Position numbers and translations under genes: made by a program. A stretch of DNA of 64,000 bases, taken from contig NC_066578.1 of NCBI RefSeq assembly GCF_024679095.1, positions 1,952,414 to 2,016,413 on the forward strand, written 5' to 3'. The first letter of the stretch is position 1. Every line of letters starts with the position of its first letter. Below, piece by piece: positions 37,436 to 61,272 of the stretch. The DNA is from Eriocheir sinensis. Its lineage: Eukaryota; Arthropoda; Malacostraca; Decapoda; Varunidae. The notes beneath the pieces are model-generated. The model was not told where the DNA came from. It saw only the letters and a program-made list of their open reading frames with translations, and searched no databases.

Positions 37436-37864
37436 AGGCCAGGAAATAAAAGGTGAGGTATCGGGCACAATGTCAGACTGAATTAACATGTACATAAGCC
37501 TGCAGGGGACGGTAAATTAGAGAGAGGTCCATTTTAGGCCTTAAGAGTAGACATTACCTTCACTACCTGGCCGGAGAGGGGTAGGACTGCACCGCCTGAT
37601 CCTTCCCCCCGGCGATATAGCAACAAAAAGTGACGTAACAGAGATAGGAGAATGTCTGAAGGTGGCGAGGAGGAGGAGGAGGAGGAGGAAGAAGAAGAAG
37701 AAAAAGAAGAAGAGGAGAAAGAGGATAGGGAATAAGGGAGAGAAATGATGAAGGTAATGATATTGATATTGATGCCGTTCTACTACTGCTGCAAAAAGGA
37801 TTATGTATAAAAAAAATTGAGGTGTCTGAAAGTGATGCAACAAGGATTATGTATTAAAAACTAA
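37436..37864. other. No gene; (AGG)n tract
   Basis: (AGG/AGA)n at about 37665-37735. The rest shows no recognisable feature. Confidence 0.5.
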
Positions 37865-38701
37865 GGTCGGTATCATAAGACACTCTCGCTTCTCACATCA
37901 GCCATTTCTAAAGGTCAAAGAGGGGGTCAGTAGGGTTCCACTGGGTGTTTCTTCAGGTTCATGGTACAGAAGAAGGGTCAAACTACCACCAGGGTCATAA
38001 AACTACCCCTGGAAATGCCCACAACTCCTACGAAAGCCTTGTCAAATATGTGTGTTTCTTAGACTCAAAGTACAGAGGAAGGGTCACACTACCACCAGGG
38101 TCATGAAACTACCCCTGGAAATGCCCACAACTCCTACGAAAGCCTTGTCAAATATGTGTGTTTCTTAGACTCAAAGAACAGAGGAAGGGTCACACTACCA
38201 CCAGGGTCATAAAACTACCCCTGGAAATGCCCACAACTCCTACGAAAGCCTTGTCAAATATGTTTGTTTCTTAGACTCAAAGTACAGAGGAGGGGTCACA
38301 CTACCACCAGGGTCTTGAAACTACCCCTGGAAATGCCCACAACTCCTACGAAAGCCTTGTCAAATATGTGTGTTTCTAAGACTCAAAGAACAGAGGAAGG
38401 GTCACACTACCACCAGGGTCATGAAACTACCCCTGGAAATGCCCACAACTCCTACGAAAGCCTTGTCAAATATGTGTGTTTCTTAGACTCAAAGTACAGA
38501 AGGAGACTCACACTACCACCAGGGTCATGAAACTACCCCTGGAAATGCCCACAACTCCTACGAAAGCCTTGTCAAATATGTGTGTTTCTTAGACTCAAAG
38601 TACAGAGGAAGGGTCACACTACCCCTGGAAATGCCCACAACTCCTACGAAAGCCTTGTCAAATATGTGTTCTTGGGCGGCGAAATGTCTTGTGATACGAC
38701 C
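37865..38701. mobile_element. TIR element with internal 106-bp tandem array (module M, copy 1)
   Basis: Left end GGTCGGTATCATAAGACA and right end (complement) GGTCGTATCACAAGACAT form inverted repeats of about 24 bp with a few mismatches. CTAA lies directly outside both ends (37861-37864 and 38702-38705), a candidate 4-bp target duplication. Inside, a 106-bp unit repeats about six times from 37970 to 38670 (step verified at 38041 and 38147). Each unit contains CACCAGGGTCAT, AAACTACCCCTGGAAATGCC and CTCCTACGAAAGCC. The core recurs in other copies of the module across the window. Open frames such as 38264-38530 are repeat translations. No transposase is present. Confidence 0.8.
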
Positions 38702-38959
38702 CTAAAGATCACCAGATACTTCAAAACGCGAAAGAAAAACGGTGAAGTATTAGCCCAGCCAGCAGACTCGCTCCCTCCCCCTCGTATACAGCCAGGCGTG
38801 AGGTGCGGGTCGCTGGCGGGTCGTGACGCGTGTTGAATAATGCATCGCGGTCACGTCTATTTACCCCCTCCCGACCAACAGGAAGAGTGTTGTGATTTTG
38901 TGCGCCTGGAGGTAAGTGGTTGAAGGTTGTATTGCCGGCACGTTCACCATGCAAGCGGA

Positions 38960-39670
38960 AATATATACAGAGATAAACATAAATAGTCAGACGGATACAT
39001 ATATAAATGGAAATTGATATAGACATGTAGATAGATAGATATACAAAGATAGGAAGCTAGATAAATGAATACTGATATAGACGATAGGGCAAAATATATA
39101 CAGAGATATACATAAATAGTCAGACGGATAGATATATAAATGGAAATTGATATAGACATGTAAATTGATAGATAGATATACAAAGATAGGAAGCTAGATA
39201 AATGAATACTGATATAGACGATAGGGCAAAATATATACAGAGATATACATAAATAGTCAGACAGATAGATATATAAATGGAAATTGATATAGACATGTAG
39301 ATAGATAGATATACAAAAATAGGAAGCTAGGTTATTGAATACAGATGTAGACGATAGGGCAAAATGTATACAGAGATAGATATACATAGATAGTTAGACA
39401 GATAGATAAATAGAAATAGGGATAGATATGTGAATAGATAGATAGATACACAAAGTTAGATAGGAAGCTAGGTTATTGAATACAGATATAGACGATAGGG
39501 CAAATTATATTAGACAAAAAAAGACAAATGGGTAGATAGGCAGATAGACAGAGCTAGATTGAGAAAAGAAATAGATAGATAGATATAGATAGACATAGAT
39601 AGATACAGATAGATATAGATAGATAGATAGATAGATAAAGTTGATATAGACACAGATGGATAGATAGAAA
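38960..39670. repeat. GATA-rich array with ~135-bp higher-order unit
   Basis: ACGATAGGGCAAA recurs at 39081, 39218, 39351 and 39492 (steps 133-141 bp) within (GATA)n-rich DNA. The last part (39560-39660) is nearly pure GATA. Tyr/Ile/Ser-rich minus-strand frames are artefacts. Confidence 0.9.
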
Positions 39671-40025
39671 ACTGCTACAAGAGGATCAAAATTCAACCCT
39701 GCGAAAAGGAAATTAAGCCAACACAGTGCTATTGGTCAGAGTTATATTTAATGTGACGTTCTTATTCAACACATCGCCTGGCTTCCCACACAATAGAGTT
39801 GGCAGATGCGCAAGACTGTACGAGACTATACAAAATTGTGCACGATATTTTTCGAGGCTATCAGACACCATCGAGTTAGTGGCGAGAAGGGAAACTGTGT
39901 CCCAGCCTTCACGTAGACGCCTATAACACTATTCCCATGTTCACTAAGGGAGAGTTTGAGGAGAACAGCAAGTAAGAGAATTGGATTAAGAAGATTCAAG
40001 CCGTTAAACACTTCATTAATACGTG
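39671..40025. other. No gene seen
   Basis: Unique-looking sequence between two microsatellite blocks. The frame at 39726-39926 has no recognisable motif. Confidence 0.45.
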
Positions 40026-40029
40026 TAAT

Positions 40030-40063
40030 TAGATAGATAGATAGATATAGACAGAGTGATAGT

Positions 40064-40157
<94 letters not shown>

Positions 40158-40259
40158 CATAGATAGACAGATAGATAGATACATACATACATACATACAT
40201 ACATACATACATAAATACATACATACATACTTAGATACATGGATAGATAGATAGATAGG

Positions 40260-40295
<36 letters not shown>
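40030..40295. repeat. Compound GATA/GA/ACAT/GT microsatellite
   Basis: (GATA)n at 40030-40047, (GA)n about 40068-40155, (CATA)n about 40178-40232, (GATA)n about 40243-40258 and (GT)n 40262-40292 in direct succession. Confidence 0.96.
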
Positions 40296-40607
40296 ACCTA
40301 CCACTCACTGAATAAAATTGCTATATTGCTTTAATGAACAATGAGACACGATGATCAAAATAAACGAAGGTCGCTGAGGGGAAGGAAAGGAGAACGGAAG
40401 TAGGGAGGAGAGAACAGGGGATGAACGGGAGGAGGAGGAAGGGGAGAGGGAGGGAAGGGTGGCGTCAAATAGGAGAGGGGTGAACGGAAGAGAGGGCGGG
40501 AGGCTGGATGGGTGGAGCGCCAACAATCCCGGAAAACAGCAATGAGGGGCCTACAAGTGCCACAAGTTGACAAGCATGGGCGGCACTCCTGACCTTCCGT
40601 GACTTGC

Positions 40608-40884
40608 TTAACCCGGTAGCAGCGACGGGCCAAATCTGTGGCTTTACCGTGTAGCAGCGATGGGCCAAATTTGTGCCATGATATAAACCTCCCAAAATAG
40701 ATGATGCATAAACTGATCACACATGCGTTGATATATATTATGAAATGGTTTGCGTGAGTGATGATTCTTTCTCATTATTTTACTTAGAGGGGCCTTTAAC
40801 CTAACCTAACCTAACCTAGCCTAACCTAACCTAACCTAACCTAACCTAACTTAAGAAACATGACCCCCGCAGCTACCGGGTTAA
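40608..40884. mobile_element. piggyBac-type MITE (TTAA ends) carrying a (TTAGG)n tract
   Basis: TTAA at both ends (40608-40611, 40881-40884) encloses inverted ends CCCGGTAGCAGCG and, on the complement, CCCGGTAGCTGCG. TTAA targets with CCC-starting ends are typical of piggyBac. A second copy in the opposite orientation at 57093-57317 aligns over its whole length. This copy differs by a ~55-bp (CCTAA)n expansion near its right end. Inside, AGCAGCGATGGGCCAAATTTG repeats the start in altered form. There is no transposase, so it is non-autonomous. Confidence 0.83.
40798..40853 (-). repeat. Interstitial arthropod telomere-type repeat (TTAGG)n
   Basis: About eleven units of CCTAA (TTAGG on the minus strand) with one variant unit (CCTAG). 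This is the canonical telomere unit of most arthropods. Flanking sequence on both sides belongs to the MITE, so it is internal, not a chromosome end. Confidence 0.9.
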
Positions 40885-41253
40885 AGGAGGGGGAGGAAGG
40901 TAGGGAAGGGGGAGATGGGAGAAGAGAAAGATAAGGAAAGGGGAAGAAGAGGAAGGAAGAAAAATGGGGAAGGGGGAGATGAGAGAAGAGAAAGATAAGG
41001 AAAGGGGGAAGAAGAGGAAGGAAGAGACATGGATGGATGGTAGATACAAGGAGTAAAAAGTTAGTATGGGAATGGCGGAGATGTGGGGAGCAAGGTGGGG
41101 AAGGGGAATGGGGGAGATGGTTAAAGCGTGTGATCATTTCCACCACAAACCTTAGGGGACACTCGAAACAGATTTTTGAGGAGAGAAGCATCAAAATTCA
41201 ACAAGCTTTTAAATATAGACATGACCACACTGTGACTTCTATGCAATTACTGC

Positions 41254-41258
<5 letters not shown>
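40885..41258. other. Purine-rich, no gene
   Basis: GGGGAAGGGGGAGATG-type near-repeats (about 40905-41020), then ordinary sequence to a (GA)n tract at 41258. No coding signal. Confidence 0.5.

Positions 41259-41293
<35 letters not shown>
41259..41293. repeat. (GA)n
   Basis: About 35 bp of GA dinucleotides adjoining the 3' tail of a LINE fragment. Confidence 0.95.
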
Positions 41294-41296
<3 letters not shown>

Positions 41297-41996
41297 AGAA
41301 TAAGAACTTTATCTCCACTGTTCCAATGGTTATTCTTTTACATGAGACTTACGCTTCCGAGAACATTAAAATGAAGTTAATACACAAAAGAAAACAACTA
41401 TATTAAAATTGAGTTAAACAACATTCGTGAGTTATAAGGTAAAAAGTATTAAACATAAAAAGCTAAAACGTTATCATCATAAAAGGTTAAAGTATAGTTT
41501 AAAGTGTTATGATCAGAGTATGAGTAAGATGTAGTCAGGCAATATAACATAACATGGTGAGGCAGTCGGAGTGAAAGTGTAAAAAAAGTCGATTGATCTA
41601 AAACAGTGGAACATGTCATGTAATATTCACAATTCAAATTGTTTGTTGAAAAGATGTTTCTTCAGACGTGTTTTATAAGTGTTAAGGCAGGAAGTATTTT
41701 TTACGTTGTTAGGAAAACTGTTCCATAGTGTGGGTCCGGCAACTTGGAGGGACTTGGTGCCCAAGTTAGTGCTGCACATGGGGACGTAGAGCTGTTCAGA
41801 TTACCTCGTGCTGACATTGTGGCTGTGCCTCTCGCCCACTGTTGGCAGTGGGAACGCTCAATTAGGAACTTTTTTATTAATGAGTTTGTAGATAATTACT
41901 CCGATTTCAAAAGTATGTTTCTGTTTTATTTTGACCCAGCCAAGTTCTTTGATAAATGGAGTAGCGTGTTCACTCCTGGGAGCTGCAAAATTTTGT

Positions 41997-41998
<2 letters not shown>
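41294..41998 (-). mobile_element. L2/CR1-like LINE 3' end
   Basis: Minus-strand text: EHATPFIKELGWVKIKQKHT, FEIGVIIYKLINKKVPN (41989-41858), then after frameshifts CSTNLGTKSLQVAGPTLWNS, FPNNVKNTSCLNTYKTRL and KKHLF before a stop at about 41640. The end with P.LWN.LP..+....L...K..LK.HLF is the classical C-terminus of L2/CR1-type ORF2. The tail ends with GAATAA-like short repeats at 41293-41306 (on the plus strand), as expected of L2-like 3' ends. It is 5'-truncated and flanked by (GA)n on both sides. Confidence 0.78.

Positions 41999-42062
<64 letters not shown>
41999..42062. repeat. (GA)n
   Basis: About 62 bp of GA dinucleotides at the truncated 5' border of the L2-like fragment. Confidence 0.97.
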
Positions 42063-42066
<4 letters not shown>

Positions 42067-42164
42067 TTACGAGTTGTGTGTTGGTCCCCACGGCTCTGAC
42101 ACCGGAAATTTAAACACTTCTTTCCTTCTAAACTTCACATGTCCCAAAAGCTAAGGATTGCTGG

Positions 42165-42776
42165 TTCCTGATTCCAGAGAAAGCCTTGCCGCTGGACCTG
42201 GTATAGCGGTGTGCATGGCAAAGGAGACCCGATCACATCCTCGGTATTACTAATTGGGGGATCCTTCAGGAGCGTGGGGCTTTCCAGAGTGCTGAATTCT
42301 TATCGACCAACCACAGACATCTTACAACTTTGAGGATGCACACTAGGTCCCAGAAAGTCTCAAGATGCAATCCTCCTTTGTTCCATCTAGAGAAACTGAA
42401 GTTGGAAAGTTTCGTTTAGTCGGCGCAACATCTGTGGTCATATGCCGGAGAGAGACAGAAGGGGGAAGGAATTATAGGAGAAGGGAACAGATGCTAGGAG
42501 ACGGGACACAACCCCCGATTAATACCTGGTACCCATTCACTGCTGGGTGGACAGGGGCGTAGGGTATCGGAAAAGCCGCCCAAATTTTTCCACTCCGCCC
42601 GGGAATCGAACCCGAGCTCTCTTAAATTGTGAGGCGAGTGTGCTAACCACTGCACCACGAAGCCCCCTAGAGAAACTGAAGGCCCGAGCGTGTGATGAAG
42701 ACTATGCAGTGGCAGTCTCAAATCGATGTGAAGTGTTTTGTACTTTGGAGGACCCTGGGAAGGTGTGGGATAAGAA
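42165..42776 (+). mobile_element. RTE-like LINE ORF fragment, split by a SINE
   Basis: Outside the SINE the plus-strand text reads TRSQKVSRCNPPLFHLEKLK on the left. It resumes on the right with LEKLKARACDEDYAVAVSNR and FEV-like CEVFCTLEDPGKVWD. This resembles the endonuclease-to-RT linker of RTE-type LINEs common in invertebrate genomes (family call from pattern recall, not searched). The SINE insertion duplicated the codons for LEKLK. Module M abuts its right end. Confidence 0.6.
42402..42666 (-). mobile_element. Full-length tRNA-headed SINE (family A) with 15-bp TSD
   Basis: On the minus strand: GGGGGCTTCGTGGTGCAGTG, GGTTAGCACACTCGCC (A box) and GGGTTCGATTCCCGGG (B box), then a body with TGTCCACCCAGCAGTGAATG and a 3' end CGACTAAACGAAACTTTCC. 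The 15-bp CTAGAGAAACTGAAG flanks both sides (42387-42401 and 42667-42681) without mismatch. The head is a decayed tRNA without a folded acceptor end, so it is a retroposon, not a tRNA gene. Confidence 0.92.
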
Positions 42777-42783
42777 GCCTTGG

Positions 42784-42880
42784 GCCGTATTACTAAACAT
42801 TTCGTCGCCCAAGTTCACATATTTGGCAAGGCTTTCGTAGGAGTTGTGGGCATTTCCAGGAGTAGTTTTAGGCTGGCTAT
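42784..42880 (-). mobile_element. Module M, partial copy
   Basis: Starts with the right-end TIR in inverse orientation (GGGCCGTATTACTAAACATT, then TCGTCGCCCAAG). It continues with TTGGCAAGGCTTTCGTAGGA and GTTGTGGGCATTTCCAGGAG, the complement of the 64/106-bp core. Only one core unit is present. The far TIR was not found. Confidence 0.7.
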
Positions 42881-42929
42881 ACGTATACTTCTTCCATAAC
42901 CCGATTCTCCTCTTCTTCCTCCCTCCCTT

Positions 42930-43176
42930 CCCCTTCACCCTCACAACCGAGAGAGCCTGGGTTCGATTCCCGGGCGGAGTGAAAAAATTTGGGCGGCTTT
43001 TCCGATACCCTACGCTCCCGTCCACCCAGCAGTGAATGGGTACCAGGTATTAATCGGGGGTTGTGTCCCGTCTCCTGTGATCTGTTCACTTCTCCTATAA
43101 TTCCTTCCCCTTCTGTCTCTCTCCGGCATATGACCACAGATGTTGCGCCGACTAAACGAAACTTTCCAACTTTTAT
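42930..43176 (+). mobile_element. tRNA-headed SINE (family A), second copy
   Basis: Plus-strand GGGTTCGATTCCCGGGCGGA, CCGTCCACCCAGCAGTGAAT, then GACCACAGATGTTGCGCCGA and the shared 3' end CGACTAAACGAAACTTTCCA. The 5' part of the head (A box) is missing or diverged. It lies 260 bp from the inverted full copy. Confidence 0.88.
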
Positions 43177-43378
43177 CCCCTTCATCCTCGCATTTAGCAT
43201 CATTATCAAAATTACCGTAACATCCCTCACCATTACACCATTACCATCATCATCATCAGCACTGCCATCATTAGAATCTGTGCAATCATAGCCTTCAAGT
43301 TTTCGTAAATGATTTAATGAACCAAGTTAATTTGTATGAGCGAACGCATTAACAACCAGCAAAACACTTGTTGGCCAT

Positions 43379-43418
<40 letters not shown>

Positions 43419-43744
43419 AAAACCAGGAAAAAGCGTTACAAATAAAGTTAAAATAAGCCAACATTCGTATTATATGAGGAAGGGGAAGCCGGGGGAAGGG
43501 GAGAGAAAGATGTAGGGAAGGAAGAAGGGAGGGAAGGGAAGGGAGAAGGAAGGGTAGGGCCAGGGAAGGACGGGAAAGGGAAGGAGTAAGGAAAAGAGGG
43601 GATATAGGCAAAGGAAGGGAAGGAGGGGGGAAAACTAAGAAAGGTAAGCTGTATATTGATAAGCTGTTCCTCTATGCACGTCAATACCAACGCCATCTAT
43701 CGCCCACTCTTAGAAGCTTACACACGGCACCCTCAGTATCGATA

Positions 43745-43745
<1 letters not shown>
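43177..43745. other. No gene; (GA)n and purine-rich stretch
   Basis: (GA)n at 43381-43415 and GGGAAGG-rich sequence 43480-43630. The rest is unremarkable. Confidence 0.55.
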
Positions 43746-43748
<3 letters not shown>

Positions 43749-43796
<48 letters not shown>

Positions 43797-43833
43797 CACA
43801 CACACAGGCACGCACACACACACACACACACAC
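43749..43833. repeat. (CA)n
   Basis: About 80 bp of CA dinucleotides with a few interruptions. Confidence 0.96.
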
Positions 43834-43959
43834 GTAATTTCACCTTTCGTACAGGTAAATTATATAATTGGCGAGGTTTACATGCATGGTTTTATTACGA
43901 TCCACAAAGGCTCTCGTGTGTTTGGAAATAGGAAGAAAAGAAGGGATGGAAATTGCTCG

Positions 43960-44280
43960 GATGGGAAAGGAAGGGACGGGAAGGGAAGGGAAGGGAAGGG
44001 AAGGGAAGGGAAGGGAAGGGAAGGGAAGGGAAGGGAAGGGGTGGGAAGGGAAGGGAAGGGAAGGGAAGGGAAGGGCAGGGAAGAGATGGGAAGGGAAGGA
44101 AGGAAGGAAGGAAGGGAAGGGGGTGGGAAGGAAGGAAGGGAAGGAAGGGAAGGAAGGGGTGGGAAGGGGTGGGAAGGAAGGGAAGAGGGAAGGGAAGGAA
44201 GGAAGGAAGGAAGGGAAGGCAAGGGAAGGGAAGGAAACAGAAGGAAAGGGAAGGGAAAAGAAAGCAGGGAAAGGAAATTA
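43960..44280. repeat. (GGGAA)n array
   Basis: About 320 bp of GGGAA pentamers with GGAA variants. Glu-Gly-Lys and Pro-Ser-Leu open frames through it are artefacts. Confidence 0.96.
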
Positions 44281-44328
44281 ATAATATCAAAGAAGAATAT
44301 TTAAAGAAAGGCAGAGAATCACAGGAAC

Positions 44329-45128
<800 letters not shown>

Positions 45129-45379
45129 ATAAAATATCACCACCTTTGAAAGTTGTCAGTACGTTCCTCCGGGTTCATGATGCGTCATTGTGTAGTGGAA
45201 GGCAAAGTATCATTATTGACTTAGGGGGAGGAGAGAACGGGAGGATGGAAGACCAGGGGGGAAGGGAAGGAGAGGAGAGGCCGGGGGGAAGGGAAGGAAA
45301 CAAGGCCACGGGGGGAGGGAAGGAAGGCTAGACGAAGGATAGGAAAGACAGCAGGATATCTTTGGTTCTTTTACCGACT

Positions 45380-45545
45380 CATAGCGCCTTAAGGCAAAGT
45401 TGAGGACATAGCTATAGCTGCGCGTGGCCGTGGTGCTCATCTCCGTCACACTGGCCCTTCAGTCTGCGATGGGTAAGAACAGAATACCCCGGGACGTACC
45501 AGTGTGACATCCGGGCTACCATAATTTACCTTCGCCAGGTTTCCC
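45380..45545 (-). mobile_element. SINE family B fragment
   Basis: Minus-strand blocks CCCGGATGTCACACTGGTAC, CAGTGTGACGGAGATGAGCA and GGCCACGCGCAGCTATAG match the body of the copy at 53870-54165. The tRNA-like head is lacking. Confidence 0.72.
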
Positions 45546-45599
45546 TATTAATCGACCAGCCCAAACGGATTGACCGAATAGAAAGAAGACAAGGAACCA

Positions 45600-46450
45600 G
45601 AAGAGAAAGGAGGGTGAAGAAATAAACAAGTGGAGGGAACTGGATGATAAAGAGAGGAGGAGAGAAGAAGGATAGGAGAGGAAGCAGATATACGTCCTTA
45701 AAGATGTGAAAAAGAAATAAATAAAGTAAAAATGAAAAACCTAACTGACTGGATGGAAAGAAGAGAAGGGAAGGGAAAGGAAAGCAAGGAAAGGAAACTA
45801 ATAATACCAAAGCAGAATATTTAAAGAATGGCAGAGAATCACAGGACCCCCCCCCCCCCCTCCCCCACACACCCACCCACAGAATCACAGGAAAACCTCC
45901 CCCCTACAAACACACGCAGAATCACAGGAGGGAAGGGAGGGTGAAGAAGAAACAAAGGGAGGAAACACGAAGATGAAGAGAGGAAGAGAGAAGAGGAGAG
46001 GAAATACAGAAGAAAATAAAAATAAAAACATGTCTTGATGAATGAGAGATAAGGGAGAGGAACGGAACGGGAGATGAGAAACAAAGGGAAGGAAACTGGA
46101 AAACGAAGAGAGGAAGAGAGAAAAGGAGAGGAAATACAGACGAAAGTAAATAAAAATAAAAACATGTCTTGATGAATAAGAGATAAGGGAGAGGAACGGA
46201 ACGGGAGATGAGAAACAAAGGAAGGAAACTGGAAAACGAAGAGAGGAAGAGAGGAAGAGAGAGGAGGAGAAAATAAAGACGAAAAAAACGTAAAATGAAG
46301 ACGCTACTTGGTGAATGGAAGACAAGGGAGCACAAGGGAAGGGAGGGTGAAGAAACAAAGGGAGAGAACGGGAAGATGAAGAGAGGAGGAAGAAGGGGAA
46401 GGGAGAGAAGTGGAGGGAGGAAGGGAGGGAAGAGGAAGCAGGCAGGCGCG
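45600..46450. repeat. Purine-rich region with ~134-bp tandem units
   Basis: AACGGAACGGGAGATGAG recurs at 46061 and 46195 (134-bp step), and related units extend over about 45910-46280. A (C)n run lies near 45846-45870. Phe/Ser/Leu-rich minus frames are artefacts. Confidence 0.85.
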
Positions 46451-48727: not shown

Positions 48728-48829
48728 AATCATGGGGGACACGCTCATTCCCCGGAACGCCTGCTGGCCGGTCATGCCTCGGGGCGCGGAATGATTGCAG
48801 GGAAAAGAAAAACACTGCCCGGCCTACAG

Positions 48830-49345
48830 TACCACCGCGCACTCCCTGACTCTCGACACTTTATTCAATACGTTATACTAAGAGGGTTTTGTGGTGTGGT
48901 TTTCGTATCTCGGTATTCTGGGATGCTTTCGGCCTATAGTATCAACACGCACTCCTTTACTCTCGATACTTTATTCAATACGTTATACTAAGAGAGTTTT
49001 GCGGTGTGGTTTTCGTATCTCAGTATTCTCAAACGTTTTCGAATTATAGTATCAACACGCACTCCCTGACTCTCGACACTTTATTCAATACGTTATACTA
49101 AGAGGGTTTTGTGGTGTGGTTTTCGTATCTCAGTATTCTCAAACGTTTTCGGCCTTCAGTATCAACACGCACTCCCTGACTCTCGACACTTTATTCAATA
49201 CGTTATACTAAGAGAGTTTTGTGGTGTGGTTTTCGTATCTCAGTATTCTCAAACGTTTTCGACCTATAGTGTCACCACGCACACCCTGACTCTCGACACT
49301 TTATGCAATACTTTAGTTGAAGAGAGTTTTGCAGATCTGCTTTCG
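48830..49345. repeat. 110-bp tandem repeat
   Basis: TCTCGACACTTTATTCAATA (or a close variant) starts at 48851, 48961, 49071, 49181 and 49291, exact 110-bp steps. Each unit also contains CAGTATTCTCAAACGTTTTC, which resembles the end sequence of module M. Confidence 0.95.
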
Positions 49346-49496
49346 AACGTCGGTATTCTTAGACGCTCCCGCCTCTCACATCAACTATGTCCGAAGCCGT
49401 TTTTTATATTCATGGTGCAGAAGCCTTGTCAGTCTACCACCAGGGTCTTAAAACTACCCTTGGAGATGCCCACAACAACTACGAAAGCCTTATCAA

Positions 49497-49540
<44 letters not shown>

Positions 49541-50955
49541 GGATGGACATAATTTGAATTCGCATAAGGGTTCTGTCCACATTCATGGTACATAAGCCTT
49601 GTCAAACTATCACCAGGATCATGAAACTACCCCTGGAAATGCCTACAACTTCAACGAAAGACTTGTCAAACTATCACCAGGATCATGAAACTACCCCTGG
49701 AAATACCCACAACTACGAAAGCCTTGCAACAGGGTCATTAAACTACCCATGGAAATGCCCACAACTCCTACGAAAGACTTGCCAAACTATCACCAGGGTC
49801 ATTAAACTACCCATGGAAATGCCCACAACTCCTACGAAAGCATTGTCAAACCATCACCAGGGTCATTAAACTACCCATGGAAATGCCCACAACTCCTCCG
49901 AAAGCATTGTCAAACCATCACCAGGGTCATTAAACTACCCATGGAAATGCCCACAACTCCTCCGAAAGCATTGTCAAACCATCACCAGGGTCATTAAACT
50001 ACCTATGGAAATACCCACAACTCCTCCGAAAGACTTGTCAAACTATCACCAAGGTCATGAAACTACCCATGGAAATGCCCACAACTCCTACGAAAGCATT
50101 GTCAAACCATCACCAGGGTCATTAAACTACCTATGGAAATGCCCACAACTCCTACGAAAGACTTGTCAAACTATCACCAAGGTCATGAAACTACCCATGG
50201 AAATGCCCACAACTCCTACGAAAGCATTGTCAAACTATCACCAGGGTCATTAAACTACCCATGGAAATACCCACAACTCCTACGAAAGACTTGCCAAACT
50301 ATCACCAGGGTCATGAAACTACCCATGGAAATGCCCACAACTCCTACGAAAGACTTGTCAAACTATCACCAAGGTCATGAAACTACCCATGGAAATGCCC
50401 ACAACTCCTACGAAAGCATTGTCAAACTATCACCAGGGTCATTAAACTACCCATGGAAATGCCAACAACTCCTACGAAAGACTTGTCAAACTATCACCAG
50501 GGTCATTAAACTACCCATGGAAATGCCCACAACTCCTACGAAAGCATTGTCAAACCATCACCAGGGTCATTAAACTACCCATGGAAATGCCCACAACTCC
50601 TCCGAAAGCATTGTCAAACCATCACCAGGGTCATTAAACTACCCATGGAAATGCCCACAACTCCTCCGAAAGCATTGTCAAACCATCACCAGGGTCATTA
50701 AACTACCCATGGAAATACCCACAACTCCTCCGAAAGCATTGTCAAACCATCACCAGGTCATTAAACTACCCATGGAAATGCCCACAACTCCTCCGAAAGC
50801 ATTGTCAAACCATCACCAGGGTCATTAAACTACCCATGGAAATACCCACAACTACGAAAGCCTTGCCAAACGAGCACCAGGGTCATTAAACTACCCCTGG
50901 AAATGCCCACAACTCCGAAAGCCTTGCCAAACGTGTATGCTTGGGGGTCGAAAAG
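49346..50955. mobile_element. Module M copy with a ~64-bp tandem array
   Basis: Left end GTCGGTATTCTTAGACGCTC (49350) followed by CTCTCACATCAACTATGTCC, as in the copies at 37865 and 59374. From about 49590 to 50930 a 64-bp unit (CACCAGGGTCAT, TAAACTACCCATGGAAATGC, CTCCGAAAGCATTGTCAAAC) repeats about 20 times. A (GT)n at 49499-49538 separates the first core unit from the array. The right side ends with CTTGGGGGTCGAAAAGC at a long (TA)n. Open frames at 49585-50573 are repeat translations, recognisable by periodic NYHQGHETT. Confidence 0.85.
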
Positions 50956-50956
50956 C

Positions 50957-51895
<939 letters not shown>

Positions 51896-52414: not shown

Positions 52415-52481
<67 letters not shown>

Positions 52482-52512: not shown

Positions 52513-52566
<54 letters not shown>

Positions 52567-52800
52567 ACATACACGCACAAGTCCCCCGTACCACCCCCCC
52601 ACACACTCACCACCCACACTCCCTCCCTCCCCCCCCCAATCACACACACAAAATAACTTCCGGAGGACTCCCTTGCACAAAACCGGGAACATTGTACTGG
52701 AGGCTTGTCCGGGGCTAGCACTGAATGACAGGCCGGTGGGAGTAACCATTGACCGTCAGGAAATTGATATGTTCTTTTGGAAAATTATGAGGAGAAGCAG
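52102..52800. repeat. G-rich minisatellite, (GT)n and (CA)n
   Basis: GGGATAGGTGATTGTGTGTG repeats about four times (52287-52400), followed by (GT)n 52418-52487 and (CA)n 52515-52563, then C-rich sequence. No upstream A2M-family exon could be supported here. Confidence 0.9.
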
Positions 52801-52804
52801 TTGC

Positions 52805-52835
<31 letters not shown>

Positions 52836-52880
52836 TAGAAAATGTATATGTTCTTTTGGAAAATTATGAGAAGCAGTTGC

Positions 52881-52932
<52 letters not shown>

Positions 52933-52980
52933 TAGAAAATGTATATGTTCTTTTGGAAAATTATGAGGAGAAGCAGTTGC

Positions 52981-53041
<61 letters not shown>

Positions 53042-53071
53042 TCATTAGTTAGTTTCAGAAGCAGACAGACT

Positions 53072-53106
<35 letters not shown>

Positions 53107-53136
53107 TCATTAGTTAGTTTCAGAAGCAGACAGACT

Positions 53137-53235
<99 letters not shown>

Positions 53236-53236
53236 A
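52801..53236. repeat. (AGT)n compound array
   Basis: AGT-triplet runs alternate with a ~55-bp block (ATGTTCTTTTGGAAAATTAT, GAAGCAGTTGC) three times and with a CATTAGTTAGTTTCAGAAGC block two to three times. Block and triplet tract were duplicated as a unit. Confidence 0.93.
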
Positions 53237-53478
53237 AGTAGTGTCATTAGTTTGTTTCAGAGGCAGAGAGACTGTTAGGCATTCGCAATTAAGGTATCTA
53301 TACTTCTTAGGATGGTCGAGGAATACAAATTACTATAACGGTTGTATAGACGGTGGTAAAGGTTGTTCTGGCAATGGTAATAAAAAAACGTTACCTTGCA
53401 CGTTTTTACCTACTTTTTCTTACCTCAATATACATTTTTTTATATTTGTCCATCTTACTCGTCTTTGCCCCCAACCCC

Positions 53479-53527
<49 letters not shown>

Positions 53528-53869
53528 TATACACTGCCCCGTCCCCACCCCCCCACCCCCACCCCACCCCACCCCATACACACACACAGGTAAATGAACC
53601 GCTCAGAACGCATTCCCTCTCTGTCTCCGGAGCGTAGAGGTAAGATAAGTAGTCCAGGATGCTGCCCTCCAGGACCGCCGACCGTAATGACTTAACAGGA
53701 ATCTCACGCCGTGGAAAAATCGGACTGATTCCCTCTACGGACCAAAGGGTGAAGTGAAAATAACAGCTGATTTATACATCTTCCCAAGTAGGACAGTTAT
53801 AAGCTTGTCAACTTTATATCTGTGACGAAGAGACAATTTTAGCAGCTTTATGTTAGCCCCCAAAATGAA
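53237..53869. other. No gene; (CA)n and C-rich stretch
   Basis: (CA)n at 53481-53522, C-rich to 53585. Remaining sequence without recognisable feature. Confidence 0.5.
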
Positions 53870-54165
53870 GGAGTTAGAATGCCTTGCTACGAATCCGGCT
53901 TGGGTTTGAATTCCGGCCCAGTGTGTCGGCGCGCAGGAAGTAACCCAGCTGTTCATCCTCCCTTTCGGGCTGGTTGATAAATGGGTACCCGGGGACCTGG
54001 AGAAACCCGGGGAAGATATACTTGGCAATCCGGATGTCACACTGGCCCCGTGCAGCGAGGTACCAATGGGTTATCACATGGCACAGGATCAAGAGCCATT
54101 GCGACGGAGATGAGCACTGAGGCCACGCACAGCTGTTTCTTTTTAAACAAAGGACACGGCTCAAG
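53870..54165 (+). mobile_element. tRNA-headed SINE (family B), best copy
   Basis: A tRNA-like head with TGGGTTTGAATTCCGGCCCA (B-box region), then a body with GGTACCCGGGGACCTGGAGA, CAATCCGGATGTCACACTGG and CGACGGAGATGAGCACTGAG. Related partial copies lie at 7140 and 45380. It borders the 3' end of Jockey-like J4. Confidence 0.72.
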
Positions 54166-55290
54166 GGCAATAAAAAGGGTGAGAAATATTAAGCCCGCTA
54201 CTCGCCGCTCCCATAATAGATAACAGTAAAGAATTGCCAAAAGAAAGGTCAATTTCGGATGGAGAGGTGTCTTGATACACTCTTCTTGAAAGAGGTCAAG
54301 TCATAGGCAGGAGGAAATACAGACGAAGGAAGGCTGTTCCAGAGTTTACCAGTGTAAGGGATGAAAGAATGGAGATGCTGGTTAACTCTTGCATAAGAGG
54401 TTTGGACAGTATAGGGATGAGCATGAGTAGAAAGTCGTTTCAGCGGGGCCTCGGGAGGGGGGAGGCATGCAGTTAGCAAGCTCAGGAGAGCATGGAAATA
54501 TCTAAAGAAGATAGAAAGAGATGCAACATGGCGGCGGAATTTAAGAGGTAGAAGACTATCAGTAAGAGGAGGAGAGCTGATGAGACGAAGAGCCTTAGAC
54601 TCCACTCTGTACAGAAGAGCCGTGTGGGTGGAGCCCTCCACACGTGAGATGCATGCTCCATACGAGGGCGGACAAGGCCCTTGTATATGGATAGCAACTG
54701 TGTGGGGGAGAAGAACTGGTGGAGACGATACAGAACGCCCAATCTCGAGGAAGCTGACTAAATGAAAGAGTAGATGTGAAGTTTCCAGTTGAGATTTTGA
54801 GCTAAGGATAGACCGAGGATATTTAGTGTTGAAGAAGGTGATAGCTGAGTGTTGTCGAAGAATAGGGGATAGGTGTTTGGAAGATTGTGTCGAGTTGATA
54901 GGTGGAGAAATTTGTTTTTTGAGGCATTGAAGGACACAAGGTTCCTTCTGCCCCAATCGGAAATGATAGCAAGGTCTGAGGTTAGGCGTTCTGCAGCCTC
55001 CAGTCTGAAGTCATGCAATTCCTGTTGAGAGGGTCTTCTGTTGAAATAAGTTGAATAATGCAAAGTGGAGTCATAAGCGTATGAGTGGACAGGACAGTTT
55101 GTTATGGAAAGAAGATCATTGATGAATAACAGGAAAAGAGTGGGTGATAGGACAGAGCCCTGTTGAACACCACTGTTGATAGGTTTAGGGGAAGAACAGT
55201 GACCGTCTACCACCGCAGAGATAGAACGGCCGGAAAGGAAACTGGAGGTAAAGGAAGAGAGAAGAATGGAGACACAACCCACTACTGTTT
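54166..55290 (-). mobile_element. Jockey-like LINE J4 (RT to 3' end)
   Basis: Minus strand: SILLSSFTSSFLSGRSISAV, GVQQGSVLSPTLFLLFINDL, HSYAYDSTLHYS (YADD box mutated to YAYD), AAERLTSDLAIISDWGRRN, SFNASKNKFLHLS, then GVLYRLHQFFSPTQLLSIYK, RPRMEHASHVWR and a C-terminus ending KKSVSRHLSIRN (stop at 54249). The 3' UTR continues to about 54170 with GGGAGCGGCGAGTAGCGGGC, as in J3. Few frame breaks, but the catalytic box is lost and the 5' half is missing. Confidence 0.87.
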
Positions 55291-55465
55291 GTTGAGTGTT
55301 AAGTGACTGGATCCTCCTTGCAACTCGAGCTCCAATATTTCGCGATTCGTTCATCCTCTTTAACCATGTACGAACATTCTCCTAAATTCCCAGCACGACA
55401 CCTTTACTAATGGCCTTGTTATGGTCCTCTATATGTTTCAGGGAACTCACATGTAATGATAGTGA
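55291..55465. other. Unassigned junction sequence
   Basis: Short non-repetitive interval between J4 and the GATA array. It contains no recognisable feature. Confidence 0.5.
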
Positions 55466-55649
55466 TGGATAAATAAAATAGATAGATATAGATAGATAGA
55501 GATAGATAGACAGATAAATATAGATAGATATAGATAGGTAGATAAAGATAGATATATAGAGATAGATAGAGATAGATAGATAGATAAATATAGATAGATA
55601 AAGATAGGTAGATAAAGATAGATAGATAAAGATAGATAGATATAGATAG

Positions 55650-55680
<31 letters not shown>

Positions 55681-55897
55681 GATATAGATAGGTAAATAAA
55701 GATAGATAGATAGAGATAGATAGATAGATAAATATAGATAGATATAGATAGGTAGATAAAGATAGATAGATATAGATAGATAGAGATAGATAGATAGATA
55801 AATATAGATAGATATAGATAGGTAGATAAAGATAGATAGAGATAGATAGATAGATAAATATAGATAGATATAGATAGGTTGATAAAGATAGATAGAT

Positions 55898-55929
<32 letters not shown>

Positions 55930-56452
55930 ATATAGACAGATATAGATAGGTAGATAGATAGAGATAGATAGAGATAGATAGATAGATATATAGAGATAGA
56001 TATAGATAGGTAGATAAAGATAGATAGATATAGATAGATAGATAGATAGATAAATATAGATAGATAAATATAGATAGATATAGATAGGTAGATAAAGATA
56101 GATAGATAGAGATAGAAAGAGATAGATATATAGATAAATATAGATAGGTAAATAAAGATAGATAGATATAGATAGATAGATAGATAGATAAATATAGATA
56201 GATAAATATAGATAGATATAGATAGGTAGATAAAGATAGATAGATAGAGATAGAAAGAGATAGATATATAGATAAATATAGATAGGTAAATAAAGATAGA
56301 TAGATATAGATCGATAGATAGATAAATATAGATAGATATAGATAGGTAAATAAAGATAGATAGATAGAGATAGATAGATAGATAAATATAGATAGATATA
56401 GATAGGTAGATAAAGATAGATAGATAGAGATAGATAGATAAATAAAATGAGT
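55466..56452. repeat. GATA array (~980 bp) with higher-order structure
   Basis: Built of GATAGATA, GATATAGATAGGTA and GATAAATATA blocks that recur in the same order every ~60-70 bp and in longer duplicated segments (e.g. 56040-56160 and 56190-56300 are near copies). The 349-codon Tyr/Ile/Leu/Ser frame is an artefact. Confidence 0.96.
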
Positions 56453-57092
56453 AAACGAGTAAATTTTTCTTGAACCACTTCGTCTGTACCTAGCAATTTA
56501 TATCTTTAAGTCTTGGTGTGGTGTTCGTGTGGAAAGGGAAGGATTAGATTGCACAAGTGTCTGATAATGATACGCTCTTAAGTAATAGCCTAGCATCTCA
56601 AATCATTCCTTATTATTTTTCTCATTTTTTCCTGCTTCTACATTAGTTTACCATTAGTTTTGCTTTTTTATTTTATTTTCTTTTTTTATTTATTCATTTT
56701 ATTAGTCCCCATAAACTGCACCATGATCTAATCTTACTAAACAACTCGATTCGATAATTTTTCCTTTAAGAATTATCTGATAATGACGGTATACAAACTG
56801 TTATTAACGAAAGCAAGTGAGATTTTTCGTGGTGTATCGATTCTAAAGCAGGTTCTATTTATCTATCTATCTATATCTATCCATTTTATTTATCTATTTA
56901 TTTAGTTTACTCCTATCCGATTCCTCGAGTGCAAAACAAAAGCACATCGTTAACTATCTAACTATCACAACGTTAACTATCGTACACACACACATCGATA
57001 TCATCACTTTTACCTGTCATTATTATCAAGACAAGACAATACATTTACTTTCTACCCCTTGATATGTTTATGTTAGTTTGTTGTTGTGGATT
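56453..57092. other. AT-rich, no gene
   Basis: Low GC, with short TATC runs near 56856-56890. No motif or coding signal. Confidence 0.5.
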
Positions 57093-57317
57093 TTAACTCG
57101 GTAGCTGCGGGGATTAGGTTTCTTAAAGGCCCCTCTAAGCGAATTAAATAAAAAAAATCATCGCTCTCGCAAACCACTTCATAATAAATATATCAACGCA
57201 TTTGTGATCAGTTTATGTATCGTCTATTTTTGGTGAAGTTATATCATGGCAAAAATGTGGCCCGTCGCTGGTACACGGTAAAGCCACAAATTTGGCTCCT
57301 CGCTGCTACCGGGTTAA
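57093..57317. mobile_element. piggyBac-type MITE, second copy (inverted)
   Basis: TTAA at both ends (57093-57096, 57314-57317). Left end CTCGGTAGCTGCGGGGATTA, right end on the complement CCCGGTAGCAGCGAGGAGCC. It aligns as an inverse copy with 40608-40884 over its entire length but has a single GATTAGG where that copy has (CCTAA)n. It is 225 bp long and non-autonomous. Confidence 0.82.
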
Positions 57318-58160
57318 GATCATTGGTACCCTTCCCCTCTGTACCTACATTTACATAATCTTATATATTCTCTCGTCTTCTTTCTCCTCTCTCATCGCTT
57401 CTCTATTTCTTGATTTTCCTATGTTTGTTTAATTTATACGATTTTTTTTTCAACTCTTTTTCTCCTGTTATCATATTGTTCAGTATTTTTTTTTACTTAT
57501 TTGAAGATTGCATTTTTTGTTTCTATTTTAATTCGTATAATGGTCAATAGTTTCTTAGTTATATGTTAAGTTATTTTTCTGCTTTTTTTTTTACTTATAT
57601 GTTGTTGTGTGTTTTAAGATCATTGCTACCCTTCCTCTCTATCCCTATACATTTTCATAATCTTCTATTTTCTCTCTTCTTCCTCTTCTCTCATCGTTTT
57701 CCCTTTAATCCTCTCTATCTCTCTCATTGCTTCTACATCTACATCTTTACTCCTTTGTTTTCTTATGTTTGCTTGATGTGTATTTTCAGATAATTGCTAA
57801 CCTTCCCCTCTGTCCCTATATTTTCATAATCTTCTATATTCTCTCTTCTTCCTCTTCTCTCATCGCTTTCACTAAAATCCTCTCTATCTCTCTCATTGCG
57901 TCTACATCTTCTACTTCTTTACCTCTTGATTTTCTTATGTTTGCTTGTTGTGTATTTTAAGATCATTGCTACCCTTCCCCTCCATCCTCCATTTCCATAA
58001 CCTTCTGTATTCTCTCGTCATCAACCTCCTCTCTTTTCGTTTCTTTACTTCTTGTTTTCGTATGCTACCCTTCCTCTCTCTCCCTCCAGTTCCATACTCC
58101 TCTACATTCTCTCGTCCTCTATCTCCATTTCTCTCATCGCTTCCACTTTCATCCTCTCTA
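57318..58160. repeat. ~171-bp tandem repeat, T/C-rich
   Basis: GATCATTGCTACCCTTCC (or variant) lies at about 57329, 57619, 57790 and 57961. The last three are 171 bp apart, and the first interval is longer. Each unit contains CATAATCTTCTAT..TCTCTC and a TTTCTTATGTTTGCTTG end. Open frames 57563-58274 are repeat translations. Confidence 0.85.
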
Positions 58161-58384
58161 TCTCGGCGTCTCAGGTGTTTGGGGGAAGCTGAACATGTGG
58201 GTTATGATGTCCGCAGTGCCCCGTCTTTACCAGTCAGTCTCATAATAATAAACAGTAATAAAAGAACTTATTGACTCCCCGCTCCAGTAACTCCTGACAG
58301 ATCTCACCACACCAGTGCAGTCAAGTGTTTTAAAAGGGCACCGGAACACGCCCTCTTCTTCCCTCTCTCAGTAAAAAGCATGGA
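58161..58384. other. No gene seen
   Basis: Ordinary sequence between two tandem arrays. No motif found. Confidence 0.45.
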
Positions 58385-59370
58385 CCCGCAGAGCACCTTT
58401 CACCGCATTGTTAGTGTTTGTGACGAGAAAGTCTGATAACCAAGCTAACGACCTGATATTGTTGCTTATTTTGTCTTGTGTGGTAGAAAACGCATCAGTA
58501 AAAGCTATCCTAAGATCCAGACATTTTACAGCGTAGTTAGTATTTGTGACGAGAAAGTCTGATAACCAAGCTAACGACCTGATATTGTTGCTTATTTTGT
58601 CTTGTGTGGTAGAAAACGCATCGGTAAAAGCTATCCTAAGATCCAGACATTTCACAGCACCTTTAGAATTTGTGTCATGTCTGATAACCAAGCTAACGAC
58701 CTGATATTATTGCTTGTTTTGTCTTGTGTAGTAGAAAACGCATCTGTAAAAGCTATCCTAAGATCCAGACATTTTACAGCGTAGTTAGTATTTGTGACGA
58801 GAAAGTCTGATCAACAAGCTAACGACCTGATATTGTTGCTTATTTTGTCTTGTGTGGTAGAAAACGCATCTGTAAAAGCTATCCTAAGATCCAGACATTT
58901 ACAGCGTAGTTAGTATTTGTGACGAGAAAGTCTGATAACCAAGCTAACGACCTGATATTGTTGCTTATTTTGTCTTGTGTGGTAGAAAACGCATCTGTAA
59001 AAGCTATCCTAAGATCCAGACATTTTACAGCGTAGTTAGTATTTGTGACGAGAAAGTCTGATCAACAAGCTTGTTTTGTCTTGTGTGATAGAAAGCGCAT
59101 CGGTAAAAGCTATCCTAAGATCCAGACATTTTACAGCGTAGTTAGTATTTGTGACGAGAAAGTCTGATAACCAAGCTAACGACCTGATATTGTTGCTTGT
59201 TTTGTCTTGTGTGGTAGAAAACGCATCTGTAAAAGCTATCCTAAGATCCAGACATTTCACAGCACCTTAAGTATTTGTGTCAATTCTGATAACCAAGCTA
59301 ATGACGTGATAATATTGCTTGTTTTGTCTTGTGTGGTAGAAAACGCATCGGTAAAAGCTATCCTATGATT
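58385..59370. repeat. 126-bp tandem repeat
   Basis: GCGTAGTTAGTATTTGTGACG starts at 58531, 58779, 58904 and 59030, with steps of 125-126 bp or twice that. Units contain AAGTCTGATAACCAAGCTAA and AAAAGCTATCCTAAGATCCA. About eight units, some shortened. The period is a multiple of three, so minus-strand frames stay open (KCLDLRIAFTDAFSTTQD repeated). I take that as incidental. Confidence 0.93.
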
Positions 59371-59592
59371 AAACTCGGTATCCTCAGCCGCTTCTACCCT
59401 CACACCAACTATATCCAAGGGCCAAAAAAGAGGTCAGTCGGGTTTTAATGAGTGTTTGTTTAGGGTCATGGTACAGAAGAACAGCCATACTACCACCAAG
59501 GTCATAAAACTACCCTTGGAAATTACCGAGACTCCTATGAAAGTCTTGTCAAATATATGAGTTTGGGCGCCTAAGTGTTTAAGAATATGACC
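59371..59592. mobile_element. Module M, single-core copy
   Basis: Left CTCGGTATCCTCAGCCGCTT and right (complement) GGTCATATTCTTAAACACTT are imperfect inverted ends. Interior GAGGTCAGTCGGGTTTTAAT, GGTCATGGTACAGAAGAACA, then one core unit CACCAAGGTCATAAAACTAC. It sits between the 126-bp and 117-bp arrays, whose sequences continue either side. This copy shows the module before tandem amplification. Confidence 0.75.
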
Positions 59593-60215
59593 CTCAGACC
59601 CTTCACAGCATCCTTAGTGTTTGTCGAGAAAGTCCGCAAAACAAGTGAGCGATAGTGTTGTTTGTTTTCTCTTATGATAGAAAAGACAACGGTAAAAGCT
59701 ATCCAAAGACTCAGACCTTTCACAGCATCCTTAGTGTTTGTCGAGAAAGTCCGCAAAACAAGTGAGCGATAGTGTTGTTTGTTTTCTCTTATGATAGAAA
59801 AGACAACGGCAAAAGCTATCCTAAGACTCAGACCTTTCACAGCATCTTTAGTGTTTGTCGAGGAAGTCCGCAAAACAAATGAGCGATAGTGTTGTTTGTT
59901 TTTTGTTATGATAGAAAAGACAACGGCAAAAGCTATCCAAAGACTCAGACCCTTCACAGCATCTTTAGTGTTTGTCGAGAAAGTCCGCAAAACAAATGAG
60001 CGATAGTGTTGTTTGTTTTCTCTTATGATTGAAAAGACAACGGTAAAAGCTATCCTAAGACTCAGACCCTTCACAGCATCTTTAGTGTTTGTCGAGAAAG
60101 TCCGCAAAACAAGTGAGCGATAGTGTTGTTTGTTTTCTCTTATGATAGAAAAGACAACGGTAAAAGCTATCCTAAGACTCAGACCTTTCACAGCATCTTA
60201 AGTATCTGTGTCAAG
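59593..60215. repeat. 117-bp tandem repeat, related to the 126-bp array
   Basis: About five units of 117 bp (CACAGCATCCTTAGTGTTTG, AAGTCCGCAAAACAAGTGAG, AAAAGCTATCC.AAGACTCAGAC). It shares AAAAGCTATCCTAAGA and the CAGAC.TTTCACAGC block with the 126-bp family. The minus frame of 206 codons with KGLSLRIAFTVVFSII repeated every 39 residues reflects the period. Confidence 0.93.
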
Positions 60216-60273
60216 TGAGTCCGGTAAACAAGGTAAAGACTTAATAATGTTTTGTTTTCTCCCTTGCGTCTTG

Positions 60274-60534
60274 GGGCCGCTTTCACAGCTGCTTTGTTTT
60301 GATCGTTACCAATGGCGGCGATCGACGCTATAGTTTTCCACGTGAAACTGGCCTATTGGGTAGTGGCGGCTGCAGAGGAGGCGAGAGGTGTTGAGAGTGT
60401 GTGGGAAGGTGCGGGGCTAGGCTAACCCCGCAGCTGCCATTACCCCATCGGCCGGTTTTACGAGGAAATACTATAGCGATGATAACAGACATTGGTAACG
60501 ATCCAAACAAACAAAACGACTGTGAAAACGGCCC
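60274..60534. mobile_element. MITE with long GGGCCG inverted ends
   Basis: Left GGGCCGCTTTCACAGCTGCT and, on the complement, right GGGCCGTTTTCACAGTCGTT. Similarity extends about 65 bp inward (GATCGTTACCAATG is shared). The central part includes GCGGGGCTAGGCTAACCCCG, itself nearly palindromic. The total of 261 bp could fold almost end to end. It interrupts a decayed unit of the 117/126-bp family. The target duplication is not clear. GGG-starting ends recall PIF/Harbinger, but that is only a suggestion. Confidence 0.75.
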
Positions 60535-60554
60535 TTAGTAATGCATCAGTAATA

Positions 60555-61272
60555 TTCTAATGTCCATATTCTTAAACATTTCGGCACACACACACACACA
60601 CACACACTCCCTCACACGCACATCTGATAAGGCTTTCGTAGAGGTTGTGTTAGTATTTCCATGGGTAAGTTTATGAGCCTAGTGATAGTCTAAGGGCTTT
60701 CGTAGAGGTTGTGTTAGTATTTCCATGGGTAAGTTTATGAGCCTAGTGATAGTCTAAGGGCCTTCGTAGAGGTTGTGTTAGTATTTCCATGGGTAAGTTT
60801 ATGAGGCTAGTGATAGTCTAAGGGCTTTCGTAGAGGTTGTGTTAGTATTTCCATGGGTAAGTTTATGAGGCTAGTGATAGTCTAAGGGCTTTCGTAGAGG
60901 CTGTGTTAGTATTTCCATGGGTAAGTTTATGAGGCTAGTGATAGTCTAAGGGCTTTCGTAGAGGTTGTGCTAGTATTTCCATGGGTAAGTTTATGAGCCT
61001 AGTGATAGTCTAAGGGCTTTCATAGAGGTTGTGTTAGTATTTCCATGGGTAAGTTTATGAGCCTAGTGATAGTCTAAGGGCCTTCGTAGAGGTTGTGTTA
61101 GTATTTCCATGGGTAAGTTTATGAGCCTAGTGATAGTCTAAGGGCTTTCGTAGAGGTTGTGTTAGTATTTCCATGGGTAAGTTTATGAGCTTAGTGATAG
61201 TCTAAGGGCCTTCGTAGAGGTTGTGTTAGTATTTCCATGGGTAAGTTTATGAGCTTAGTGATAGTCTAACAA
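60555..61272 (-). mobile_element. Module M copy, inverted, with a 64-bp tandem array
   Basis: Starts with the end sequence TATTCTTAAACATTTCGGC (60560), then (CA)n, then a 64-bp unit (GGCTTTCGTAGAGGTTGTGT, TAGTATTTCCATGGGTAAGT, TTATGAGCCTAGTGATAGTC) repeated about ten times to 61270. The period was checked at 60691/60755. The unit is the complement of the same core seen at 50 kb, with the same period. The distal TIR was not found. Confidence 0.82.

Follow-up and report, generated by a model that had tools for sequence, protein, structure and literature searches.

Miniature inverted-repeat transposable elements (MITEs) are already well known as a source of tandem repeats, miDNA4 and Xstir of Xenopus being established examples (PMC12628747; this and the other papers named here are cited from excerpts), and transposon-linked tandem repeats have also been described in the Pearl and HINE elements of bivalves (PMC9659126, PMC7492417) and in Tetris of Drosophila (PMC4079207). 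In the decapod Eriocheir sinensis, a stretch of 64,000 nucleotides (assembly GCF_024679095.1, contig NC_066578.1, forward-strand positions 1,952,414 to 2,016,413; hereafter the window) holds five places, at 37.9, 42.8, 49.3, 59.4 and 60.6 kb, which a first-pass annotation had grouped as copies of one element, and fuzzy matching and BLAST within the window confirm that they are. This element is 221 bp long and has common boundaries, terminal inverted repeats (TIRs) and a high copy number; it is too short for a transposase and is a MITE. We favour, with moderate confidence, the reading that it belongs to the PIF/Harbinger-type (PHIS) elements and that, after insertion, its copies sprout local arrays at breakpoints biased by the short repeats they inherit, on a background of genome-wide amplification.

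Between the same arms the core of the element is found once in some copies and arrayed in others, as in the satellite-seeding MITEs of the miDNA4 and Xstir type. In miDNA4 of Xenopus tropicalis (Scalvenzi and Pollet, cited through PMC12628747) an internal monomer is likewise single or arrayed, and short direct repeats were proposed there earlier as the driver of duplication. However, miDNA4 is described as a Tc1/mariner MITE into which an already existing repeat was taken up, whereas the 221-bp element yields several unit lengths out of its own sequence. Xstir (Hikosaka and Kawahara, cited through the same source) is also a MITE that has tandem-array and composite forms of one sequence. Cg_HINE of the Pacific oyster (PMC7492417) shares the dispersed short arrays between conserved arms of non-autonomous elements, but consists of Helentrons with monomers mostly of 140-180 bp and separate flanks for each array type. 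Tetris of Drosophila virilis (PMC4079207) is similarly a DNA transposon yielding emerging satellite arrays, but is of the foldback type, its TIRs containing 220-bp repeats. A full-text literature search with six element fragments (Repbase, Dfam and supplements being outside its scope) returned no paper, and no description of the 221-bp element was found in the decapod and MITE/satellite literature as excerpted, including PMC10454600. Judged by the fragment text search alone, the family is apparently undescribed. Nor was a single family with several array classes and recurrent, subfamily-linked breakpoints seen in the excerpts compared.

Boundaries, abundance and placement of the element

The assembly searched comprises 1.77 Gb in 2,158 contigs. 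A 27-bp right-end pattern with up to two mismatches gave 908 matches and a 35-bp left-arm/core pattern with up to three mismatches gave 34,462, the latter including array units as well as elements; the reversed-pattern control gave 0 in each case. The disparity is probably explained by variation of the right end among core-selected copies. Ninety stretches were fetched among the right-end matches listed and 10 near-duplicates removed, leaving 80 end-selected copies, 56 of which have both ends. A second sample of 20 mostly isolated rows was picked among the exact matches listed for the 35-bp pattern. Both ends (a start at consensus position 6 or below and an end at 215 or above) are present at 12 of these core-selected loci, six others are incomplete or adjoin another copy (L125, L126, L130, L131, L132 and L142) and two (L133 and L144) are 105-bp arrays not fetched to the right end, so that the core does not occur mostly without the end sequences.

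The TIRs (end sequence GGGTCGTATTCT) are imperfect, with 12 of 17 positions alike by eye between the left end GGTCGGTATTCTCAGAC and the right end read inward, GGGTCGTATTCTTAAAC. A 4-bp target-site duplication (TSD) had been suggested initially, but the duplication is 3 bp long. Among the 56 copies with both ends, the two flanks agree in excess at exactly three positions (31, 28 and 35 copies against 20.4, 16.5 and 22.9 expected from shuffles; p = 0.0000, 0.0025 and 0.0010), with no excess on either side of them. Flanking triplets are identical in 13 of the 56 and the right triplet is TAA or TTA in 18. A C precedes the left triplet in 29 copies and a G follows the right triplet in 24, indicating a target preference of about C|TWA|G. 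It follows that the C after GACC is the last base of the element; the fourth matching base is this terminal C facing the C of the target site, and the 4-bp duplication was rejected. The common boundaries and the TSD bear out the proposal of a non-autonomous mobile element.

TSDs of PHIS elements are TWA in PIF/Harbinger and C|TNA|G in NuwaII (PMC4482050), and a 3-bp duplication of this form, with flanking C and G, is what is found here; the sequence of the target site would thus suit a PHIS-type element. The short TIR starting with G is a further likeness to PIF/Harbinger and NuwaII. The element differs from them in having no internal transposase and no autonomous relative linked to it, and internal tandem arrays do not appear in the excerpts describing those elements. 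Candidates for PF13359, the transposase domain of PHIS elements (DDE_Tnp_4), number 2,237 genome-wide, all 150 scored places lying above the cut-off. Comparing part of the 100 right ends listed out of 908 with part of the 150 domains listed, no PF13359 place was found within 48 kb of a right end. One locus, L035, was considered as a longer autonomous relative and set aside: its open reading frames, judged by eye and with no family search, include no convincing transposase frame.

Copies in the window and their tandem arrays

Copy A (37865..38702, plus strand) is a complete element with an internal 106-bp array of 6.4 units at 37945-38623, agreeing with the roughly six units first noted; its TSD is TAA at 37862-37864 and 38703-38705, and a C precedes the left triplet. 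Copies B and D each carry one core, as proposed, but B (42782..42880, right limit approximate, minus strand) comprises just a right half, its left half being missing. Copy D (59373..59593, plus strand) is complete at 221 bp. The triplets beside it differ (TAA at 59370-59372, TCA at 59594-59596). When its two flanks are joined and one triplet is taken out, they can be aligned without gaps, over 89 positions, with a 117-bp satellite unit that reads C|TCA|G at the insertion point, and copy D seems to have landed in an existing satellite array, where either one triplet has since changed or the target was already a variant. A 126-bp satellite to its left (58395..59371, plus strand) is related to the 117-bp array to its right (59594-60261), and copy D lies at or near the switch between these two variants of one satellite.

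Arrays of 64-bp units, described initially as occurring at two loci in opposite orientations, are indeed found in copies C (49348..50960, end approximate, plus strand; array at 49594-50916, 20.9 units) and E (60561..61381, minus strand; array at 60631-61269, 10.0 units), E being inverted relative to C. The layout of C is more elaborate than that description: in our reading, a left arm with one separate core (49348-49506) is followed by (TG)n, by a partial second left arm and then by the array, and the right end merges into an (AT)n microsatellite. Copy E has both arms besides the array, its inverted left arm lying at 61272-61381, so that both ends are there; its unit resembles a 69-bp lineage marked by GGCTCAT. 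The layouts of A and C are repeated on contig C797, where window positions 32444-52955 appear a second time with many errors; this is the same locus and therefore gives no independent evidence of mobility. C797 was rejected as an independent haplotype, the contig being noisy and its array length not clearly different.

Beyond the window, arrays were called with the program TRF (period at least 15, score at least 80) in the 80 end-selected copies. Eleven contain internal arrays and 69 do not, with units of 20 bp (25.5 units, L036), 36 bp (11, L097), 58 bp (3, L071), 73 bp (5.6, L064), 122 bp (3, L047), 156 bp (2.8, L082), 159 bp (1.9, L017), 161 bp (2.2, L104), 176 bp (2.6, L020), 209 bp (1.9, L076) and 404 bp (1.9, L067). 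Units have therefore been amplified from many parts of the element, against the initial idea of one privileged core. In L064 (C13:16114735-16115995) nested periods of 26, 43, 59 and 73 bp are built from the right end of the element and its flank, a pattern suggestive of an array that grew step by step.

Two array types were counted genome-wide by their unit junctions, totals that count array units and not events. The 64-type junction of copies C and E (units of about 64-69 bp) has 2,094 matches (control 0), those listed falling, in our reading, at no fewer than 42 places. All 20 such loci fetched are arrays, most with breakpoints at consensus positions 113 and 182 and units of 64-76 bp, besides one 48-bp and one 56-bp variant. 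In three of them (L120, L121 and L122) no left arm was seen within the approximately 0.75-0.8 kb fetched of each. At L110 and L115 assembly gaps start inside arrays of 69-76 bp, the array lengths being lower bounds. The 105-type junction of copy A (104-106-bp unit) has 7,281 matches (control 0), with 105-bp spacing at many places. Six of these loci were fetched, among them L146 with both ends, 4.0 units and the triplets TAA/TAA; window A and L146 are thus array-bearing elements with both ends and identical triplets. Near-identical loci or 105-type arrays also cluster at C20:2.1-4.6 Mb (L085-L090), C20:13.7-17.4 Mb and C6:1.4-2.4 Mb, perhaps as parts of a larger segmental repeat that contains the element.

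Breakpoints and the origin of the arrays

The 221-bp consensus holds six maximal direct repeats of at least 6 bp. The longest, AAACTACC, is spaced by 20 and matches the 20-bp unit of L036, and GTCAAA...GTCAAA around the core, spaced by 64, matches the 64-type unit. In most left arms of 64/69-type loci a form of AAGCCTTGTCAAA replaces AAGGGTCAAA, extending the shared sequence to as much as 13 bp. This extended motif, often with 1-3 changes, is present at nine of the 12 readable loci (13 have a left arm, that of L110 being unreadable), the canonical left arm being found at L105, L106 and L116. It is also present in window C and, more diverged, in window E, and in three of 69 end-selected copies (L030, L063 and L068), none of which has a 64-type array. 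It may mark an array-prone subfamily, and so be a cause of the arrays, or may be an effect. The arms of copy A carry GTGTTTCTT and GTGTTCTT, which are the breakpoint pair of the 104-106-bp unit. Across 12 junction types, mean junction microhomology is above random (p = 0.03). Microhomology as a general feature of all junctions is not supported, since 10 of the 12 types share 1-2 bp.

These observations suggest a series of steps in which the element would be inserted by cut and paste through a PHIS transposase acting in trans, after which a stretch between 20 and a few hundred bp long in a single copy would be duplicated locally in tandem, by replication slippage or unequal exchange. The array would then enlarge and homogenise between unique arms. 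Two breakpoint pairs recur at many loci: GTCAAA...GTCAAA, lengthened in the direction of AAGCCTTGTCAAA in related copies, for the 64-bp unit, and GTGTTTCTT/GTGTTCTT for the 104-106-bp unit. The unit length may be biased by which short direct repeat a copy inherits. Some lineages, chiefly the 69-bp GGCTCAT group, may also have moved together with their arrays.

Such joint movement would become the general rule if each recurrent array class had formed once in an ancestral copy and had then been dispersed by transposition with the array inside, a composite-element explanation that we regard as a serious possibility, though on the whole not the expected one. It would account for the same breakpoints at many loci on many contigs, for the identical end triplets of window A and L146 and for the 4.0 units found at each of L145, L146 and L149. 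Unit trees (60-90 aligned positions, midpoint-rooted and weakly resolved) show locus-specific, monophyletic units at 10 of the 27 loci tested and intermixed units elsewhere. The intermixed loci, which dispersal would produce, are 12 of the 19 64/69-type loci with three units or more and five of the eight 105-type loci (L144, L146, L148, L150 and window A); in the GGCTCAT group, L109, L119 and L120 have units that resemble those of another locus no less than they resemble one another within the locus (identity 0.90, 0.90 and 0.93 between loci against 0.88, 0.85 and 0.92 within). Positional orthology of units is nevertheless lacking between L145, L146 and L149, where units at the same position are no more alike (0.923) than units at different positions (0.924), which speaks for local amplification or strong local homogenisation at these loci. 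The monophyletic loci (L145, L147 and L149 of the 105-type; L107, L110, L117, L118, L121, L122 and window E of the 64/69-type) also speak against dispersal, as do the one-off unit lengths among the 80 copies and the units of L111 and L112, which are more alike within loci (0.94 and 0.97) than between them (0.90 and 0.93). The independent amplification at several loci claimed at first is thus supported by the differing unit lengths and the 10 locus-specific cases, but the other 17 loci, A and C included, are not separable by locus. Local amplification and inheritance probably both occur.

The opposite simplification, in which tandem duplication occurs everywhere and the element is a common bystander without any special tendency, appears rather unlikely to us, although several observations fit it. 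The flanks of the 80 copies contain 38 arrays in 122 kb (0.31 per kb), and amplification ignores the limits of the element at several places: arrays cross its right end at L064, L104 and L056, and in a 110-bp array adjoining copy C (48820..49331, plus strand) the unit includes a sequence like its left end (consensus 3-39; score 36, reached by 0 of 1000 shuffled units), so that amplification there ran across the element boundary. The short interspersed element (SINE) beside copy B has adjacent tandem partial copies at four of the 38 loci listed, these being best-scored copies read from coordinates. Amplification is therefore widespread in the genome and affects the element moderately more than the DNA around it, about twice as often: internal arrays reach 0.64 per kb of unamplified element, a ratio of 2.06 (p = 0.046), and three other thresholds give 2.10-2.40 (p = 0.02-0.06), with tandem or adjacent copy pairs missed by TRF (e.g. 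L024, L034, L040 and L086) lying outside these counts. This approximately two-fold excess and the recurrence of two breakpoint pairs at many loci are what a mere bystander would not explain. Equally, the initial picture of an element that seeds satellite DNA wherever it lands overstates the case, given arrays in 11 of 80 copies, a density about twice that of the flanks and arrays that cross the element's ends. A short, dispersed element that in some copies has a central repeat array bounded by conserved arms also recalls the Helentron/Helitron-like HINE, Pearl and DINE types of oyster and Drosophila, Cg_HINE in particular (PMC7492417). That affiliation is highly improbable given the inverted-repeat ends, the 3-bp TSD with its C|TWA|G preference and the 69 of 80 copies in which TRF finds no internal array. 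Helitrons and Helentrons are not known to have a TSD or classical TIRs, and the 221-bp element has a 3-bp TSD and TIRs.

Several observations weigh against the favoured reading of local growth at breakpoints biased by inherited repeats. Some arrays may be inherited, given that 17 of 27 loci lack locus-specific units and that the units of L133, L148 and L150 resemble another locus more than their own. The 64-type is absent from all 80 end-selected copies and the 105-type occurs there only in L086 (two units by BLAST layout, not flagged by TRF), while the 11 TRF arrays have other, one-off breakpoints. A preference for the 64- and 105-type junctions relative to others is no more than a candidate, since the genome-wide counts cover these two types, and the enrichment over flanks is weak. 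Most of the 12 junction types, with breakpoints assigned by hand, share little sequence: two share at least 6 bp in the consensus and ten, that of the copy A array (A106) included, share 1-2 bp. The pair GTGTTTCTT/GTGTTCTT was taken from the arms of copy A itself, and its two members are not identical, one having an inserted base. As to the extended left-arm motif, the array may have produced it by gene conversion instead of being caused by it. On an arm tree with the motif columns left out, 8 changes are needed for its carriers (mean 13.2 and minimum 10 in 1000 shuffles), fewer than in any shuffle; the carriers are thus related but do not form one clade. Finally, no autonomous partner with the element's ends was found.

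Neighbouring features and significance for satellite birth

Other repeats surround the five copies. Copy B lies between two inverted copies of the tRNA-derived SINE mentioned above (window 42500-42668, minus strand, and 42940-43177, plus strand), whose best copies listed elsewhere are 94-97% identical; some of its copies have internal tandem arrays, for example of 86-bp units at C47:7589533-7590120. A second PHIS-like MITE occupies window 60274-60534, with ends GGGCCGCTTTCACAG / CTGTGAAAACGGCCC and flanks TTG/TTA. A 54-bp array of about 23 units at window 62473-63715 gave no match to the 221-bp element in the searches within the window. Fragments of retroelement open reading frames, by eye reverse transcriptase-, integrase- and endonuclease-like, lie at window 15159-17083, 25299-30022 and 54249-55381.

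Accounts of how satellites originate usually start from a small number of arrays, sometimes just one, that are already complete. In this assembly a single family offers starting copies by the tens of thousands and array junctions by the thousand. With its differing unit lengths, and with arms that show the unamplified state, it is an extensive natural series of the first stages of satellite birth, in which one can count where breakpoints fall, what part short direct repeats play and whether duplication or transposition came first. It also carries a warning that arrays inside a transposon need a background rate taken from the flanks before they are called transposon-driven. More speculatively, and with rather more doubt than belief on our part, the inclination to form a given satellite may be written in the element itself: subfamilies would differ in the repeat flanking the core (GTCAAA extended to AAGCCTTGTCAAA, or GTGTTTCTT/GTGTTCTT), and each insertion would independently grow the same unit length. 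If this is true, what the transposon spreads would be not a satellite but an inclination towards one.

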